A DNA stretch of 48,702 bases from Synechococcales cyanobacterium GL140_1_metabat_312. GTDB taxonomy: Bacteria; Cyanobacteriota; Cyanobacteriia; Leptolyngbyales; Leptolyngbyaceae. Positions 25,127-44,154 of the stretch are shown piece after piece. Below the pieces are notes generated by a model. The model made no database searches and was not told where the DNA came from. It saw only the letters and a list, made by a program, of their open reading frames with translations. The stretch spans positions 1-48,702 of the forward strand of contig JANXWB010000045.1 of the NCBI GenBank assembly GCA_025351345.1, in the 5' to 3' direction. A program made the position numbers and the translations under genes. Numbering within the stretch: the first letter of the stretch is position 1; each line of letters starts with the position of its first letter.

Positions 25127-25612
25127 TTAGGACATTGATTGAATAATAAAATCAAAGTAAGGAGCTGTTTTGTCAGCATCCCCTTCGCTAAGCAAACCTA
25201 AAGACGCATCTTTGAGGCATCGGATAGCATCAACCATACCGGGAACCGGGACGCCGAGAGAATTGTACATTTCTCGTACACCCACTAGACCAATACTCTC
25301 GATCGGGTCTTTGTCGCCCGCTAGAACGCCATAGGTTACAAGGCGAAGGTACCACCCATAATCACGAACACAAAGCGCACGTTCTCGTCCTCCAAATGCA
25401 TTTCCGCCGGGGGAGATGTATTCAGGATGAGCTTTCCAGAGATTTTTAACCGATTCGTCAACAATTTTTTTCTCATTCTCGGAGAGAGTGGCAACGATGC
25501 GGGTTCGCTGTGCCCCGGTTTGGAAATACTCTTGCACGCTCTTGAGTTCACCGCTGGTGGGATACCGCAGTTCATCGTCGGCTGTGAGAATAACTTGGCT
25601 GACTACGCTCAT
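25127..25612 (-). CDS. apcD: allophycocyanin alpha-B subunit (ApcD)
   Basis: This 161-residue phycobiliprotein begins [20 protein letters not shown] and contains the chromophore site [18 protein letters not shown], with phycocyanobilin attached to Cys81 and Arg83/Asp84 holding the bilin. The N-terminus and IQSMS end mark ApcD rather than ApcA. ApcD is a minor far-red-shifted core subunit, one of the terminal emitters passing energy from the phycobilisome to the photosystems, particularly photosystem I. As in many cyanobacteria it stands apart from the apcABC operon. The other phycobilisome genes are not in the window. Confidence 0.95.
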
Positions 25613-37695: not shown

Positions 37696-38244
37696 ATGCA
37701 TCTAAATCTTCAACTTAACGCGATTGCCTGTCATATTGTGGCGCTATTGTGGATTCCGATCGCCTCTGGTCTTGCGCTGGGCGTTGGGAATTCGCACCTA
37801 GGCCACATCATGTTTATGGGAAGCTTGGCGATCGCTGCCGACTGGGACCATTCTGCAAATTTTACAGGTATGGCATGGCTTATAGCCATTGTTTTGGTCT
37901 CAATTTTGCTGATTATTTGGATGCCACTAACAATAGTCCTCATCAACCTCAACCCCGCTGTCAACGAGGTACGTTATCCCGACAGACTTATTTATCGTAG
38001 CGGCATCAATGCCTTTAATTGGTTGATCTCCTGCATCATTTGGTTGACTATCGCCGTTATTTTAGTCGAATGGCTCGATCGCTTAATTCCCCCACCCGAT
38101 AACCCCGTTTGGATTACTTGGAGCTTAGGAGTATTGATATTAATGCTTGCGATCGGACAGATCATTATGGCCATTCGCGCGTGTTGGGGAATTCTAGAGG
38201 GCAAATCTAATCGTTATTTTTTTGCATTCCCAATCTTACGTTAA
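37696..38244 (+). CDS. multi-pass membrane protein (DUF4870-like)
   Basis: This 182-residue protein has about four hydrophobic segments: IACHIVALLWIPIASGLALG, MAWLIAIVLVSILLIIWMPL, NWLISCIIWLTIAVILVEWL and WSLGVLILMLAIGQIIMAIR. The spacing and the NAFNWLISCIIW block resemble DUF4870 proteins, but I am not certain. Its stop codon overlaps that of the convergent kinase gene by 4 bp. Function unknown. Confidence 0.7.
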   Translation: MHLNLQLNAIACHIVALLWIPIASGLALGVGNSHLGHIMFMGSLAIAADWDHSANFTGMAWLIAIVLVSILLIIWMPLTIVLINLNPAVNEVRYPDRLIYRSGINAFNWLISCIIWLTIAVILVEWLDRLIPPPDNPVWITWSLGVLILMLAIGQIIMAIRACWGILEGKSNRYFFAFPILR

Positions 38245-40205
38245 AGCAGATCTTTCAAGGGTTCAATATTAAATTCCATTAAATTCCCAAGCCCGTTTGA
38301 CCAAGTAGAAATCAATAGAATCCGATCGTCAATCACCGCCGCCGCCGTCGGGTTTTCGGGTAATGCGACCTGAGCTATGGCTTCTCCATCATTAGTCAAT
38401 AGAATTCCCCTGCCTAATTGGTCTATTACCAAATAGCCCTTCGCCATCACCGCAATTACTTTAGGTTCAAAGGGCAGTTCCACACGGCGCACTTGTAAGG
38501 GTTGAAGCGAAATGAATAGCAATGACTGGGACCCATGTTGTTCCGTTACAATCAAATGCCGGGGGCGGGACGTTGGCCAAAAACGTTGAACCAAAATCTG
38601 AAGAGACATCTGTCCGAGAGCAGCGCCGCGACGATTCCAGACTTGAAAACAAAGACTAGGAGGCGCATCTAAAAATGAATCCTGAGAATCGACTTGAGAA
38701 ATCACGACAAAATGCCGAGAATCGATCGCCTGGATTTTTCGGATTTTTTGTCCCACAGGTAAAGTGAGCGATCGGGTCCAGTGGGGTTGACGTTGCTCAG
38801 GAAAAAACAATTGAAGTTGGAATTCAGTCTGCGATTCAGTCTGCGATTTAGGAATCGAACTCAATTCAACAAACCAACGCCCCATCGGATCAATCGACAT
38901 AAAATCGCTATTAATAGCCTCGATCAAACAAGGTCTTAACCATTCTTCATCGCAGTAATACAAATGAGAAGCTGTGGCAACATAACACCCCCGTGAACTT
39001 CCCCAAGCTTGATGAATTTCATCTGAAAATTGATGTGATTTCAACGGATCACCACCGTCGATCGCTAGTGAATTTACTCGGCCAAAATGAACTTTCGTTG
39101 ATTCAACTTGATATAAAATTGTATCAATAGGATGGGAATCACCCTTCGATCGTTGTTGGATTAACAATTGCTTAAGAGGACGGGGTATTGATTGAGTCGT
39201 GGAAGATTTCAACCTTAAAATCGGTAATGTTTTAGGAATAGTAGTTGAAATGACACCCTGAAGTGTTGTAGATTTTCTAATCTCTTCAGCCGCATCTATC
39301 ACCGCCTTTCGCATTTCGGTTGCATTACGATAGCGTTGACCTGGTAATTTTGCGAGCGATCGTAGCAGTATCACCTTCAAGGATTCGGGGAGTGATTCTG
39401 GGAGCCAAACAATATTCTTAAGATGAGCCTGCATCAGCGCTCCGGGAGTTCCTGAAAAAGGCCGATCGCCCATAATCAATTCATACATCAATACCCCCGT
39501 TGCATACAAATCAGCACTCACTGAATGCTGCCCATAGAATCGCTCCGGAGCCATATAAGCTGGAGATCCGCTCATTCCAGTACCAGAGGGTTTCGAGGAT
39601 TGAGTTAGGTCTTGAGCAAGTCGTGCAATGCCAAAATCAGCAATCCGTGGCACCATATTCTGCGATCGAACATCAAGTAAAATATTTTCTGGTTTAATAT
39701 CGCAATGAATAATATTTTGATCGTGAGCATGGGTTAATCCAGACAAAATGCCTTCAATCAGCGACAATGCCGTGAGTAAATGATGCGGCGAGTAATTAAC
39801 TTGACCCAAATTCAGACTGGCACGACTCTCCATTAACTGCCGTAAGGTACCACCCGCACAATAGTCCGTCACCAAATAGCGGTGATTCATCCAATAATCA
39901 CAAGCCCAACAGATCACAATATTTGGGTGCTGCAATGTTAACAAAAATCGTAATTCCCGCAGGAATTGATTGGTGGGGAACCTATCTTGATCTAATTCTT
40001 TTAAAGCAAAAAGTGATCCTGTAGCCCGATGAACCCCAAGAAACACTCTTCCATACTGGCCTCGTCCCACTAATCCTAACAAACGATATTGCGATCGGCG
40101 GACCACCGTGAGACGAGACAGTTTCAAGTTCTGATAAGCATTCACAGCAATTCTCTCAGCACAACGCTCTCTAAGCTCTCTAATTGCATTTTTTAAGAAC
40201 ACCAT
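38241..40205 (-). CDS. serine/threonine protein kinase (SpkG-like)
   Basis: This 654-residue protein has an N-terminal Hanks-type kinase domain (about 40-310). The P-loop is GRGQYG (47-52), the ATP Lys is Lys69, the catalytic loop is HCDIKPEN (Asp169; Cys and Ile replace the usual Arg and Leu), the DFG motif is 190-192, and GSPAYMAPERF is the activation segment. The C-terminal half looks beta-propeller-like (SRGCYVATASHLYYCDEEW; HFVVISQVDSQD) and has no membrane helix. Gene order matches the spkG end of the slr0144-slr0152 group of Synechocystis, reported there in salt response and photosystem II assembly. It is the last gene of a six-gene leftward run. Confidence 0.85.
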   Translation of the reverse strand: MVFLKNAIRELRERCAERIAVNAYQNLKLSRLTVVRRSQYRLLGLVGRGQYGRVFLGVHRATGSLFALKELDQDRFPTNQFLRELRFLLTLQHPNIVICWACDYWMNHRYLVTDYCAGGTLRQLMESRASLNLGQVNYSPHHLLTALSLIEGILSGLTHAHDQNIIHCDIKPENILLDVRSQNMVPRIADFGIARLAQDLTQSSKPSGTGMSGSPAYMAPERFYGQHSVSADLYATGVLMYELIMGDRPFSGTPGALMQAHLKNIVWLPESLPESLKVILLRSLAKLPGQRYRNATEMRKAVIDAAEEIRKSTTLQGVISTTIPKTLPILRLKSSTTQSIPRPLKQLLIQQRSKGDSHPIDTILYQVESTKVHFGRVNSLAIDGGDPLKSHQFSDEIHQAWGSSRGCYVATASHLYYCDEEWLRPCLIEAINSDFMSIDPMGRWFVELSSIPKSQTESQTEFQLQLFFPEQRQPHWTRSLTLPVGQKIRKIQAIDSRHFVVISQVDSQDSFLDAPPSLCFQVWNRRGAALGQMSLQILVQRFWPTSRPRHLIVTEQHGSQSLLFISLQPLQVRRVELPFEPKVIAVMAKGYLVIDQLGRGILLTNDGEAIAQVALPENPTAAAVIDDRILLISTWSNGLGNLMEFNIEPLKDLL

Positions 40206-40249: not shown

Positions 40250-40909
40250 CTAAGCGCAAAGCACTGCCATAATAGAATCATGGGACTCGCGCTTTTCAAT
40301 CATCGACTCTACAGCATCAAGGCGACTACGGGTACCTATAATAAATGTATTACAGGTATCACCTAAGGATTCACAAGTCGTTTGAATAGTGTGTAAATCG
40401 CGTCCGACTAATTGGCTAAAGAATGCCGACAACACCCCCGCCTCAAGAGAGCAGGCTGGAACCTGGTAATCCGCTGGAGCGCTATTTGCAAAGGCTGAAT
40501 TGGTGGTGCGGATAAGGATAAAACCCCGTTGATGGTGCAGTTGATCAAACTCTAGCTTGCCCCAACCATAAGTTGCCCAACAGTCTTTGAGGCAATGTAG
40601 GAAGTCAGCCATGCTCATGTCAACAAGTGGCTTTTCATAATAATCGGTCACTTCATCCCGGAAGCGAATGTAAAAATTCTTACCCCACCAGCGTCCACAG
40701 TTAAACAATACCAGCCCAGCCGCTTGACCTGTTTCCCGCAGCAGACCTGAATAAATCGCCTCAATTAATGGAGATGGAATAGCCAATAGCCGATCGCCGC
40801 GACGATTTTCCAATAGTCCCATTTCCAGATCGCCTTGAACATAGGCTTGACTAGAATAGTAATGGCCAGGTAGACGAGGCTGGACGAGTAAATCAGCAAT
40901 GGAAATCAT
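40250..40909 (-). CDS. V4R-domain protein (Slr0147-like)
   Basis: This 219-residue protein has a C-terminal V4R (4-vinyl reductase, BchJ-related) domain: AAGLVLFNCGRWWGKNFYIR, YGWGKLEFDQL, SLEAGVLSAFFSQLVGRDLH and TTCESLGDTCNTFIIG, with the paired Cys typical of V4R proteins. V4R domains are ligand-sensing modules whose cyanobacterial ligand is unknown. It sits between the globin-like gene and the kinase, as in the slr0144-slr0152 layout. The ATG has a GGAG-containing stretch (TAGGAGCACATC) upstream. Confidence 0.82.
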   Translation of the reverse strand: MISIADLLVQPRLPGHYYSSQAYVQGDLEMGLLENRRGDRLLAIPSPLIEAIYSGLLRETGQAAGLVLFNCGRWWGKNFYIRFRDEVTDYYEKPLVDMSMADFLHCLKDCWATYGWGKLEFDQLHHQRGFILIRTTNSAFANSAPADYQVPACSLEAGVLSAFFSQLVGRDLHTIQTTCESLGDTCNTFIIGTRSRLDAVESMIEKRESHDSIMAVLCA

Positions 40910-40946: not shown

Positions 40947-41453
40947 TTAAAACAGGCCAGCAACGGTGAGAAGGGAGTCATCATTGATTATGGCTTCGGG
41001 TTTGAACCTAGATTCGACTTCATAGAGGAACGGGCTAATTAACCTCATTTGGGAAGTATTTAAGGCTTGGGAAAGCTGTTGGCGTAGGGCACTGTGGATG
41101 TGGCTGTCGAGGTCAAAGGTGTCATGAATTTCTATGGATTCTTGAAACCAAGTTAGAAAATGAACTTCTAAGTAGGCTAGGTCATCCATCAACATGGCCA
41201 TGGCACAATGACGAAGCGATAGCATTGCATTACGCAAGCTGTTTTCAAGGCGATCGATCTGTTCGGTGGGAAAGCATTGTTCTAAATCGTCAGCAATCGG
41301 TTGCATCCAGGTAATTTCTTGGTCGCGAATGGTGCGATAAAGGCGGGTGCGTTCTTTCAATGACGACATGTATTGGCTGACTTCTACGGTCGCATCAGGC
41401 TTTAAATAATGAGTCGCAGCGTCGTGAAAAAGCGATTCAATAACAGGCTTCAT
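40947..41453 (-). CDS. phycobilisome/globin-fold-like protein without bilin Cys (Slr0146-like)
   Basis: This 168-residue all-helical protein has YMSSLKERTRLYRTIRDQEI and then ENSLRNAMLSLRHCAMAMLM followed by DDLAYLE. This lines up with the phycobiliprotein core helix that normally carries C-x-R-D. Here the position reads S-L-R-N, so no thioether-linked bilin is expected. It fits the Slr0146 position of the Synechocystis group. It is likely a structural or regulatory helper. An AGGAG ribosome-binding site precedes the ATG. Confidence 0.7.
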   Translation of the reverse strand: MKPVIESLFHDAATHYLKPDATVEVSQYMSSLKERTRLYRTIRDQEITWMQPIADDLEQCFPTEQIDRLENSLRNAMLSLRHCAMAMLMDDLAYLEVHFLTWFQESIEIHDTFDLDSHIHSALRQQLSQALNTSQMRLISPFLYEVESRFKPEAIINDDSLLTVAGLF

Positions 41454-41487: not shown

Positions 41488-41814
41488 TTATTCAAAAAAA
41501 TCAGAGAAATCACTCAGCGTAAATTCCGGTTCTTGAACCTTAGAACTAACGGTAGGCTGAGATGGGACTTCTATCATGGCGACTCCATCCCAGTTGACCG
41601 CTGTCATAAATTGGCCGATCATTAATGATAATGACAGGGGCGCATTTGGATCAGGACGTTGAAGCTCAGGACTATCAAAATTGATCGTTTTAGTGGACTG
41701 AGAATTTGGCTTTTGGGCAATGCCCTCCCAATTTACACTGCCCAAAAATTGCTGGACAGAAGTCTGAACCCATAGGGACCGATCGGAACGCATGGTGATT
41801 AATTCTGAATTCAT
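41488..41814 (-). CDS. small protein with a duplicated QF...VNWxG motif (Slr0145-like)
   Basis: This 108-residue protein carries VQQFLGSVNWEGIA near residues 20-33 and IGQFMTAVNWDGVA near 66-79, two copies of the same short motif separated by a polar linker. The C-terminus is acidic (FTLSDFSDFFE). I recall similar motifs in small proteins of the slr0144-slr0152 group. It overlaps the upstream V4R gene by 4 bp (ATGA), so translation is coupled. No catalytic residues are apparent; a protein-interaction role is inferred. Confidence 0.7.
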   Translation of the reverse strand: MNSELITMRSDRSLWVQTSVQQFLGSVNWEGIAQKPNSQSTKTINFDSPELQRPDPNAPLSLSLMIGQFMTAVNWDGVAMIEVPSQPTVSSKVQEPEFTLSDFSDFFE

Positions 41815-42530
41815 TTCAATTCTCCTGAACGAAGACGTTTCTCGATGTCTTTAGCGGTCGCCCCTTCATTTAACCAAAAGGACGCGGCATCAATTCGCTC
41901 TTGACCCCCTAGCAAAAATTTACAGTAGGTTTCGCCCATGGAATAGCATTGAATTTCAATACAACCCAACTGCTTTTTAACCATTTCAGTAAAGAATCCA
42001 GAAAACAACCCAGCATATAAATGACAAACAGGCTTGCCGACATCACCCAGGGTTCGCGCTAAAGCAGAATCAAATAAATTAATGAACATGAAACCCTGAC
42101 GACGATCGCCCATGTCTACTTCCCAACGGCCCCAACCTTGCGCGGTAAAAGGCCACCACCACGTTTCAAGCAAAAACATTAAGTTGGTTTGACGGACAGG
42201 ACGATCGAATTCTTTTTCAAACCATTTTTCAAAAAAGAACGCATCCTTCTGGCCCCATTCACACCCAATGGTATACATAATGGCCGCAGAGGCTTCCCCA
42301 ACTTCTTCTTCAAGTCCTTCAACTAACCCAATGATAAAGTCTTCTGTGGCAAAAATATTTTGAGCATCATTCCAATCAACAATAGTGCCCTTATCAGCAT
42401 CAAATTGGAAATAATCTTTGAAACTATAGTGATGATGATTTTTAGGATTATGAATCTTGGCGGGGGTTTGATGGTCGAGAATGAGTTTCATAGGATGTTG
42501 GATCCAGAGTAATTGGGGCACATGCAGCAT
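41811..42530 (-). CDS. V4R-domain protein (Slr0144-like)
   Basis: This 239-residue protein has a V4R-type domain: AAIMYTIGCEWGQKDAFFFE, WWWPFTAQGWGRWEVDMGDR, HLYAGLFSGFFTEMVKKQLG and CIEIQCYSMGETYCKFLLGG, with the paired Cys. Its N-terminus (YSFKDYFQFDADKGTIVDWN) is typical of this subgroup. The frame opens at 42530, but ATG 42491 (MKLILDHQ) is also plausible. It is the second gene of the kinase run and overlaps the next gene by 4 bp. It is a paralogue of the V4R protein at 40250-40909. Confidence 0.82.
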   Translation of the reverse strand: MLHVPQLLWIQHPMKLILDHQTPAKIHNPKNHHHYSFKDYFQFDADKGTIVDWNDAQNIFATEDFIIGLVEGLEEEVGEASAAIMYTIGCEWGQKDAFFFEKWFEKEFDRPVRQTNLMFLLETWWWPFTAQGWGRWEVDMGDRRQGFMFINLFDSALARTLGDVGKPVCHLYAGLFSGFFTEMVKKQLGCIEIQCYSMGETYCKFLLGGQERIDAASFWLNEGATAKDIEKRLRSGELK

Positions 42531-42574: not shown

Positions 42575-43057
42575 TTAGTCATTGCCGAGCAAGCGACGAT
42601 TCAGGTCGAGAATGGGAAGAAATAAACTGGATTGTTGCGGCGTTAAGTACTGTTTTACAACATCTTGCATGGCGGTATAGGTTGCATAACAGACCTTTTG
42701 ACGGTTGATTGCACGGACAATGGTCTGAAACCACAACAAGCAACGTTCTCTCAGGGTATCGGGATCATCCATGAGAAGTGCTGCAACGGAGTAGCGCCAA
42801 ATCATAGTTACATCGCGTTTGCAATTGGCGGAGACATCTATTGTGTCGGTGCGTATAGTGTTAGGAGCTTGAGCCAGTACTTTGTCTAAGACTTGTTGGA
42901 TGACAATTCCCTCGATTTCTTGAAGCTTCTGATAGGTCTGAAGTCTCAATTCGTAGGTCTTGAGGTATTCAGGAATGAACCGCAATTCCTCATCAGTCGC
43001 ATATCGACCTTCTACGTTGAAACTCAGTCGCTGCATTTGACTCAACATGACGCCCAT
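42575..43057 (-). CDS. phycobilisome-fold protein with a possible bilin-attachment Cys
   Basis: This 160-residue helical protein contains YLKTYELRLQTYQKLQEIEG and then SANCKRDVTMIWRYSVAALL followed by MDDPDTLRE. The C-x-R-D (Cys79, Arg81, Asp82) is at the same place and in the same helix context as [12 protein letters not shown] of ApcD (Cys81, Arg83, Asp84), where Cys carries phycocyanobilin and Arg/Asp grip it. Length is that of a phycobiliprotein subunit. It is the first gene of the kinase run. Bilin binding is inferred; the protein could instead be an apo, structural relative. Confidence 0.7.
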   Translation of the reverse strand: MGVMLSQMQRLSFNVEGRYATDEELRFIPEYLKTYELRLQTYQKLQEIEGIVIQQVLDKVLAQAPNTIRTDTIDVSANCKRDVTMIWRYSVAALLMDDPDTLRERCLLWFQTIVRAINRQKVCYATYTAMQDVVKQYLTPQQSSLFLPILDLNRRLLGND

Positions 43058-43209: not shown

Positions 43210-44154
43210 TCAGGCTCCTAAGACACGTCTAGCAATGTCGAGGTAGTAAAGCCGATCTTCGTAACCGTTGTCGCCACCATTAATCCGATAGGTAATGGTA
43301 TCAAAATCATCCCGATCGGCAAAAGCACTGAGGTTGCGGGTATTCCAGAACCATCCAGCACTGCGACAGGCCAGATCCGGGGCACTCAAGCGCTCAGGAT
43401 TTGCAATTAGGTCCGCCCCCAACGCATCCCCGCAGTCTCCATAATTTGTGCGTCCCGTAATTTGGATTAAGCCCCGGCCTTTAAATCGAACGCCATCGCC
43501 TTCTTCGACATTACCCAGATCATCGCGCCCTTCGTAGTCTTCGCCGGATGCAAGTTCTTCGAGGTAGTTGAATGATCCGGACTCATGGCAAAGCTGGGCA
43601 AGAAAATGTGCTTGACGTAAGGGCGTGGTGAGGTCAAATTCAGCTAGGGTTTCGACAACGTAAGGATAAAGCAATGTCACCTTATCGGGTTCTGCGCTAG
43701 TCACAATGTCGAAAAGCTGATTGATGGTGAAGTTAATGCCACTGCTATCGACTTTGGGAGTTTCGGCATTGGCTTTTTTAGCGTTGGATTCAAATAAATC
43801 TGCATAGGGCGGGGCATCCTTACTACGATCGCTTTTCCCCAAGGCAACCCGCAACACTTCATCTAGCCAGCCGTCTTCCGGACGAACGGTAGCAGGCAGT
43901 GCTGTGATTTTTTGTTGAATTAATCGCGCTGCTTTTTTTCGGGCTTCACCTAGGGCAATTCCCGGATATAGGGACGCATAGGGTGCTTTATCCCCCGGAC
44001 GAGGAGGTTGGCCATTAAGTTTACGAACGACTTCATCGGTTTTATAGTCAGTCGTTTCTAGCGCCCGATCGCCCCAACCCGTAAGGAGTTGAAGCAAACG
44101 ATCGCTGCCTTCTTTGCGCCAAATTTGGAGTTGATCAGGAACGAAAGATGCCAT
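43210..44154 (-). CDS. GH19-type (chitinase class I-like) hydrolase
   Basis: The C-terminal 170 residues of this 314-residue protein have GH19 features: AHFLAQLCHESGSFNYLEEL with the catalytic Glu, VRFKGRGLIQITGRTNYGDC, SAGWFWNTRNLSAFADRDDF and TYRINGGDNGYEDRLYYLD. GH19 enzymes cut chitin or peptidoglycan. The N-terminal 140 residues are unrecognised and hold a repeated segment, DKAPYASLY and KDAPPYADLF. No signal peptide is seen, so how it reaches its substrate is unclear. It is monocistronic. Confidence 0.82.
   Translation of the reverse strand: MASFVPDQLQIWRKEGSDRLLQLLTGWGDRALETTDYKTDEVVRKLNGQPPRPGDKAPYASLYPGIALGEARKKAARLIQQKITALPATVRPEDGWLDEVLRVALGKSDRSKDAPPYADLFESNAKKANAETPKVDSSGINFTINQLFDIVTSAEPDKVTLLYPYVVETLAEFDLTTPLRQAHFLAQLCHESGSFNYLEELASGEDYEGRDDLGNVEEGDGVRFKGRGLIQITGRTNYGDCGDALGADLIANPERLSAPDLACRSAGWFWNTRNLSAFADRDDFDTITYRINGGDNGYEDRLYYLDIARRVLGA

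Follow-up and report, generated by a model that had tools for sequence, protein, structure and literature searches.

Cys or Trp at the putative bilin attachment site of an Slr0149-type globin in a cyanobacterial gene cluster of the photosystem II assembly kind

The chromophore attachment site of a phycobilisome-domain protein encoded in the window (the whole stretch of 48,702 nucleotides analysed here) is almost strictly two-state among its relatives, being either Cys or Trp. The column holds Trp in 101 of 162 non-identical relatives, Cys in 58, and Phe, Val and Thr once each. Trp is always encoded by TGG, and Cys by TGC (33) or TGT (25). The neighbouring Asp82 is retained in all 101 Trp forms and in 57 of the 58 Cys forms. 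The kind of cluster and the Slr0149-type globin were already known; the new point is the two-state site, which goes beyond the main text of the paper that named the family (PMC10151467). A word search of that main text found no mention of Trp at the site; its supplement shows motifs on a globin tree, where the authors may have seen the Trp. We also found no report of it in the titles or abstract openings of the literature searched, a search with most subscription papers and supplements outside its scope.

Gene set and family membership

The protein, which we call G1, is encoded at 42575-43057 on the minus strand, coordinates that an earlier reading of the sequence alone had given correctly. 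Its gene is the first of six on one strand, in the order G1, V4R a, short protein, G4, V4R b and kinase:

42575..43057, minus strand: G1, phycobilisome-domain globin assigned to the Slr0149 type, 160 aa (PF00502 E 1.4e-18)
42821..42823, minus strand: codon TGC of Cys79, the attachment position; TGG (Trp) in most relatives
41811..42530, minus strand: V4R protein a, Slr0144 position by its matching place in relatives' clusters, 239 aa (PF02830 E 9.3e-21)
41488..41814, minus strand: short protein, Slr0145 position, 108 aa, with two alike stretches, QFLGSVNWE and QFMTAVNWD
40947..41453, minus strand: G4, phycobilisome-domain paralogue, Slr0146 position, 168 aa (PF00502 E 0.001, below cut-off)
40250..40909, minus strand: V4R protein b, Slr0147 position, 219 aa (PF02830 E 2.8e-11)
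38241..40205, minus strand: Ser/Thr protein kinase, SpkG (Slr0152) position, 654 aa (PF00069 E 9.4e-46)
25127..25612, minus strand: ApcD, outside the operon, reference for the chromophore site (PF00502 E 9.1e-60)

The domain matches confirm the V4R and Ser/Thr kinase neighbours that the earlier reading had named, and the gaps calculated from the coordinates (44, -4, 34, 37 and 44 bases) fit its proposal that G1 heads a putative kinase operon. V4R proteins a and b are the only two V4R matches in the genome. A promoter and terminator scan of the operon returned 9 and 5 sites, compared with 9.8 and 4.4 in shuffled sequences, and PADLOC gave no match for G1. Directly upstream of G1, on the same strand and across a 152-base gap, 43210-44154 encodes a class I chitinase-type (GH19) domain (E 2.5e-10).

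The short protein had no Pfam or NCBIfam match above curated cut-offs. Its two alike stretches look like a repeated docking motif. The motif consists of a hydrophobic residue, three residues, one of V, I, L, M or C, one residue, and W. Among the 40 best-scoring rows (copies in two collections counted twice), 37 had at least one such stretch, and L060 had three.

We matched the gene set to the published description of slr0144-slr0152 and to the loci of relatives. By gene order, G1 very probably belongs to the Slr0149-type globins, which were named cyanobacterial bilin biosynthesis-associated globins (BBAGs) by Rockwell, Martin and Lagarias (2023; PMC10151467) and form one lineage with BBAG-1 and BBAG-3. 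BBAG functions are stated there as not yet known. The link of the kinase to SpkG comes from gene order and from related kinases beside the same genes in other loci. The slr0144-slr0152 genes of Synechocystis are called Pap, for photosystem II (PSII) assembly proteins, because their products stabilise PSII intermediates (Wegener, 2008, as cited in PMC4853703 and PMC9145668); the cluster has also been linked to PSI (PMC4853703). An interaction among Slr0144-Slr0149 is also reported, checked by purifying GFP-tagged Slr0149 (PMC9880817). According to PMC10151467, many cyanobacteria have no such cluster, and the neighbouring slr0150-slr0152 may account for the PSII effects. V4R proteins are thought to hold chlorophyll-type ligands (PMC13326532).

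Like the cyanobacterial BBAGs, G1 is a phycobilisome-domain globin near two V4R genes in an slr0144-slr0149-like cluster, and it carries the CXRD motif that is described for some of them (PMC10151467). Here, however, the globin heads the set, the Fe-S gene is on another contig, and most close relatives have Trp. The order V4R, short protein, globin, V4R, kinase is shared with the Synechocystis Pap operon, but the Slr0149-type gene stands at the front and the six genes include no equivalents of slr0148, slr0150 or slr0151. The heterotrophic BBAG-1 and BBAG-3 proteins are likewise CXRD globins with V4R genes, and the tested ones bind bilin in E. coli without lyases (PMC10151467). Their genes lie beside one for a bilin reductase and, often, another for a heme oxygenase; here both are elsewhere in the genome. 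The proteins described as taking up bilin in E. coli are one BBAG-1 (poorly), one BBAG-3 and two BBAG-2, none of them cyanobacterial (PMC10151467).

Fold and chromophore site of G1 and its paralogue G4

PF00502 covers residues 14-152 of G1 with 67.8 bits against a cut-off of 22.2, and at this score and E value the match is not due to chance. The AlphaFold2 prediction (pLDDT 87.6, pTM 0.80) matches phycobilisome-core chains almost end to end (Foldseek TM 0.84) and an allophycocyanin-core chain with a VIA Z of 19.6 (2.7 A across 156 residues). Pairwise BLASTP places C79-K-R81-D82 of G1 on the CVRD of the window's ApcD, the correspondence that the sequence-only reading had proposed, and profile-to-PDB alignments match Cys79 to the attachment Cys of ApcB chains. 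In phycobiliproteins, the Arg and Asp residues of the CXRD motif form hydrogen bonds to the chromophore (PMC10151467). Met4 (43048) is the likelier start, since its column holds Met in 152 of the 162 relatives and a GAGGA lies nine bases upstream. The true start is probably there, which would give a protein of 157 aa with Cys76 as the attachment residue.

G1 thus shares with allophycocyanin (ApcA, ApcB, ApcD) a predicted fold and a Cys-x-Arg-Asp site, but it is a few residues shorter N-terminal to the Cys than the Apc proteins, lies in another gene set and has a Cys that is not conserved among orthologues. The PGGN loop found ahead of the chromophore Cys in four Apc proteins of the same genome is missing. 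The two are also distant in a tree, where a branch with 100% support divides G1 from the ApcA/B/D/F of the same genome; these four were the only antenna rows, and long branches may affect the result. The tree leaves out L180 and L181, which duplicate other rows in it.

G4 is homologous to G1 (BLASTP 4e-9; profile-profile probability 99.7, E 1e-25), and its AlphaFold2 prediction (pLDDT 88.4) matches a phycobilisome-core chain with a Foldseek E of 3.9e-5 and a TM of 0.66. It has Ser72 where G1 has Cys and Asn75 where G1 has Asp. The earlier reading had described a paralogue that "has lost" the Cys. The paralogue and the substitution are real, but the direction has no support, with Cys in 5 of 52 G4 paralogues. 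In the same 52 proteins the Asp82 column holds His (25), Asn (17), Gln (6) and Asp (4). Since 48 of the 52 have a residue other than Asp, the fold seemingly does not require it.

Distribution, direction and context of the Cys/Trp replacements

Relatives of G1 were collected from four sources: a phylum sample, in which 56 of 386 genomes matched at E 1e-5 (part of the weaker paralogue rows being fetched); the family, in which 39 of 42 genomes matched at E 1e-15 and 37 were read; 20 near relatives; and, among 159 related stretches from named genomes, the 80 best. The sample is therefore biased toward the window's side. The two family genomes set aside were G392, whose match is of a solo CKYD kind, and G422, whose match was left out. 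Removal of copies with identical last 130 residues reduced 206 open reading frames to the 162.

Both states occur close to the window. Its genus has four members, two with Cys and two with Trp. The closest relative among the best 80 of the 159 named-genome stretches, Alkalinema sp. CAN_BIN05 (84% identity), has Cys, and Trp is found in the two genus members that follow, at 77% and 71% identity to the window's G1. The 37 family genomes divide, by hand count, into 30 with Trp and 7 with Cys. Conservation of Cys79 in close homologues, which the sequence-only reading had made a point of decision, therefore holds for half of the genus but not for the family. Despite this non-conservation, the site does not look decayed.

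Arg81 is less constant than Asp82, being retained in 42 of 58 Cys forms and 68 of 101 Trp forms and replaced in 16 and 33, respectively. Other residues differ in frequency between the Trp and Cys forms, including Arg85 (93% and 5%), Phe110 (86% and 16%) and Thr126 (100% and 45%). In 40 residue tests for covariation with the site, over seven supported independent pairs, none reached a median p of 0.05; with these few pairs the best p was 0.0625, with nearly one-sided results for Arg85, Phe110 and Thr126. Residue 83 is listed beside 85, 110 and 126 for a Trp-linked trend.

A 164-row tree was built without the site column; it is a quick tree with many weak branches (49 of 161 inner branches starred). 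Two G010 rows (Val and Thr) were excluded from the trees. The parsimony minimum on this tree is 12 changes, 11 between Cys and Trp and one involving Phe. Forbidding a return from Trp to Cys raises the number to 25, and the supported branches alone force 7. Parsimony puts Cys at the family root and Trp at the base of the main clade, the Trp by a margin of a single step. A neutral one-base step would stay within Cys and Trp in at most 2/7 of cases (2/7 for TGG and 1/7 for TGC, counting non-stop amino-acid-changing neighbours), so eleven such steps running would have a chance of about one in a million by rough arithmetic that ignores codon bias and tree uncertainty.

A more careful 56-row tree of the sequences near the window contains 7 Cys rows and 5 changes, compared with a mean of 6.7 in shuffles, of which 16 of 500 were as low. 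A single Cys clade was rejected in this set (AU p 1e-6), a test that presumes a group fixed beforehand, and here the group was all Cys rows, with an earlier tree already seen. The best 56-row tree joins the window's G1 to the G386 Trp form (99/85). A clade of the window and G387 was not rejected (AU p 0.154), and two DNA trees from other genes did not resolve the three genus genomes. The genus may have gained its Cys twice, or gained it once and lost it once.

The gene neighbourhood was then compared between the two states. The order V4R a, short protein, G4, V4R b, (Fe-S), G1, with a kinase nearby, is common among the cyanobacterial loci compared; several members of the window's family (for example L097, L100, L129 and L130) have G1 ahead of V4R a and an Fe-S gene near G1. 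Of the 159 Cys or Trp rows, 111 have a V4R gene no more than 7 kb from G1; the other 48 have none (some stretches being short), so G1 is not tied to the cluster. The window itself contains no match for the Fe-S gene; a relative 65% identical to the query used is on another contig of the same genome (G000:C10:70563-71003). Among the family rows with a V4R gene in the stretch (21, window included), 12 have the Fe-S gene near G1, which is therefore not a constant feature of the cluster. We considered whether its loss drives loss of the Cys and rejected the idea, as the Fe-S gene is near at least 36 of 58 Cys and at least 55 of 101 Trp genes (some stretches being short). Within the genus, the Cys forms (window and L126, the latter a 6 kb contig) and the Trp forms (L127 and L128) all lack it in the stretches read. 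Because Cys and Trp forms share contexts, the neighbourhood is silent on the purpose of the Cys.

Two other arrangements were seen. L059, L063, L064 and L070, all of one family (f18), have tandem Cys-type G1 pairs after a V4R gene and no G4-type or Fe-S match within their 16 kb stretches. L085, L086, L087, L090, L091 and L094 form a separate solo phycobilisome-domain group with CxYD for CxRD and no V4R genes in the stretches read; the window's genome has no such match.

Bilins should be available in this strain, as its genome encodes a heme oxygenase, one intact bilin reductase (Fe_bilin_red) and two lyase-type proteins of PF09367 (CpeS). We did not find cpcA or cpcB in this genome (G000). Comparison of L297 (G000:C12:6000-18255) with L298 (G386:C309) from the same genus places a missing cpcB-cpcA segment of about 1.1 kb at about 5558-6205 of L297; the gap has a truncated remnant of a bilin reductase on one side and two open rod-linker genes on the other, and of cpcB only the first codons remain. 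Phycocyanin seems to have been lost from this genome, unless the assembly is in error. Phycocyanin loss as an explanation for the Cys is unsupported; G000 (Cys) is without cpcA and cpcB and G386 (Trp) has both. G388 (Trp; a draft, 95% complete) showed neither gene among the matches listed.

Possible roles of G1

The repeated switching between Cys and Trp at the attachment site suggests that G1 is a pigment-binding helper protein and not an antenna. By a narrow preference, we read it as a bilin-dependent non-antenna subunit of a Pap-type PSII-assembly complex in which a tetrapyrrole would be covalently bound in the Cys forms only. A ligand is favoured by the retention of Asp82 in every one of the Trp forms and in all but one of the Cys forms, compared with 4 of 52 G4 paralogues. 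G1 would be the phycobiliprotein-fold subunit of an Slr0144-Slr0149-type complex for PSII assembly or repair. It would carry a bilin on Cys79 in this strain, probably self-attached, beside Arg81 and Asp82, and would pair with the chromophore-less G4 much as alpha and beta phycobiliproteins do. The ligands of the two V4R proteins would be hydrophobic and are probably precursors of chlorophyll, and the kinase would tune the complex through its Fe-S protein, which is encoded elsewhere in this genome. The Trp forms would bind a tetrapyrrole non-covalently. Counting against this reading are the poorly kept Arg81, the missing PGGN loop, the Trp in two of three genus relatives, the poor chromophorylation of the tested BBAG-1, the presence of G1 in only 56 of 386 phylum-sample genomes, and the Fe-S gene outside the operon.

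More tentatively, the attachment site may be a two-way evolutionary switch. Cys (TGY) and Trp (TGG) are one base apart and have replaced each other about eleven times with Asp82 fixed; the switch would be between covalent holding of a bilin and non-covalent holding of that bilin or a related tetrapyrrole, with Trp stacking in place of the thioether. Covalent attachment would then have been regained several times independently within a Trp background, once in the window's strain. Natural Cys/Trp pairs, including the same-genus forms at 71-84% identity to the window's G1, are ready-made controls that can show whether the PSII-assembly role needs a covalent bilin, any tetrapyrrole, or none.

The main rival is a structural subunit without pigment, in which G1 and G4 scaffold the assembly complex and the Cys is an incidental TGG to TGC change. 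Such a scaffold would account for the Trp in 30 of 37 family genomes, for Cys rows near the window that are barely more clustered than in shuffles (5 changes versus a mean of 6.7; 16 of 500), for the poorly kept Arg81 and absent PGGN loop, and for a G4 that remains in the cluster mostly without the Cys and Asp. We nevertheless regard it as rather unlikely. Eleven of the 12 changes are between Cys and Trp and little else is tolerated, even though Arg, Gly, Leu and Ser are one base from TGG, and Arg, Ser, Gly, Tyr and Phe one base from TGC. Asp82 is also present in every one of the 101 Trp forms, although, judging from G4, the fold seems not to need it.

The bilin-subunit reading also has to be set against a pigment or light sensor, in which the bilin of G1 would report tetrapyrrole status or light and the kinase encoded by the last gene of the operon would pass on the signal. 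The earlier reading had left the choice between a sensor and an assembly factor, as opposed to an antenna, and the slr0144-slr0152-like gene order and the 100% branch from ApcA/B/D/F agree with that alternative to an antenna. The kinase closes the same tight gene set, and a kinase gene is at most 7 kb away from G1 in 20 of the 58 Cys rows and 61 of the 101 Trp rows. Phosphorylation of ferredoxin 5 (Fd5) is absent in an spkG mutant, SpkG activity being otherwise unverified according to a review (PMC11863333). A sensor is still improbable in our judgement: BBAG-1 and two BBAG-2 proteins are described as photoinactive or photoinert (PMC10151467), G1 is without a signalling domain, 78 of 159 rows have no kinase near G1 (some stretches being short), and nothing here points to contact between kinase and globin.

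An allophycocyanin-like light-harvesting subunit, as the CxRD motif and predicted phycobiliprotein fold might suggest, and as the "apcA" annotation of Slr0149 homologues in Acaryochloris implies (these being unlikely antenna subunits; PMC6002478), is very improbable for G1, given that the genome has its own ApcA/B/D/F/E-type genes, that the 100% branch and the missing PGGN loop set G1 apart from the first four of these, that most orthologues have Trp, and that the three BBAGs measured have quantum yields of 3, 4 and 7% (PMC10151467).
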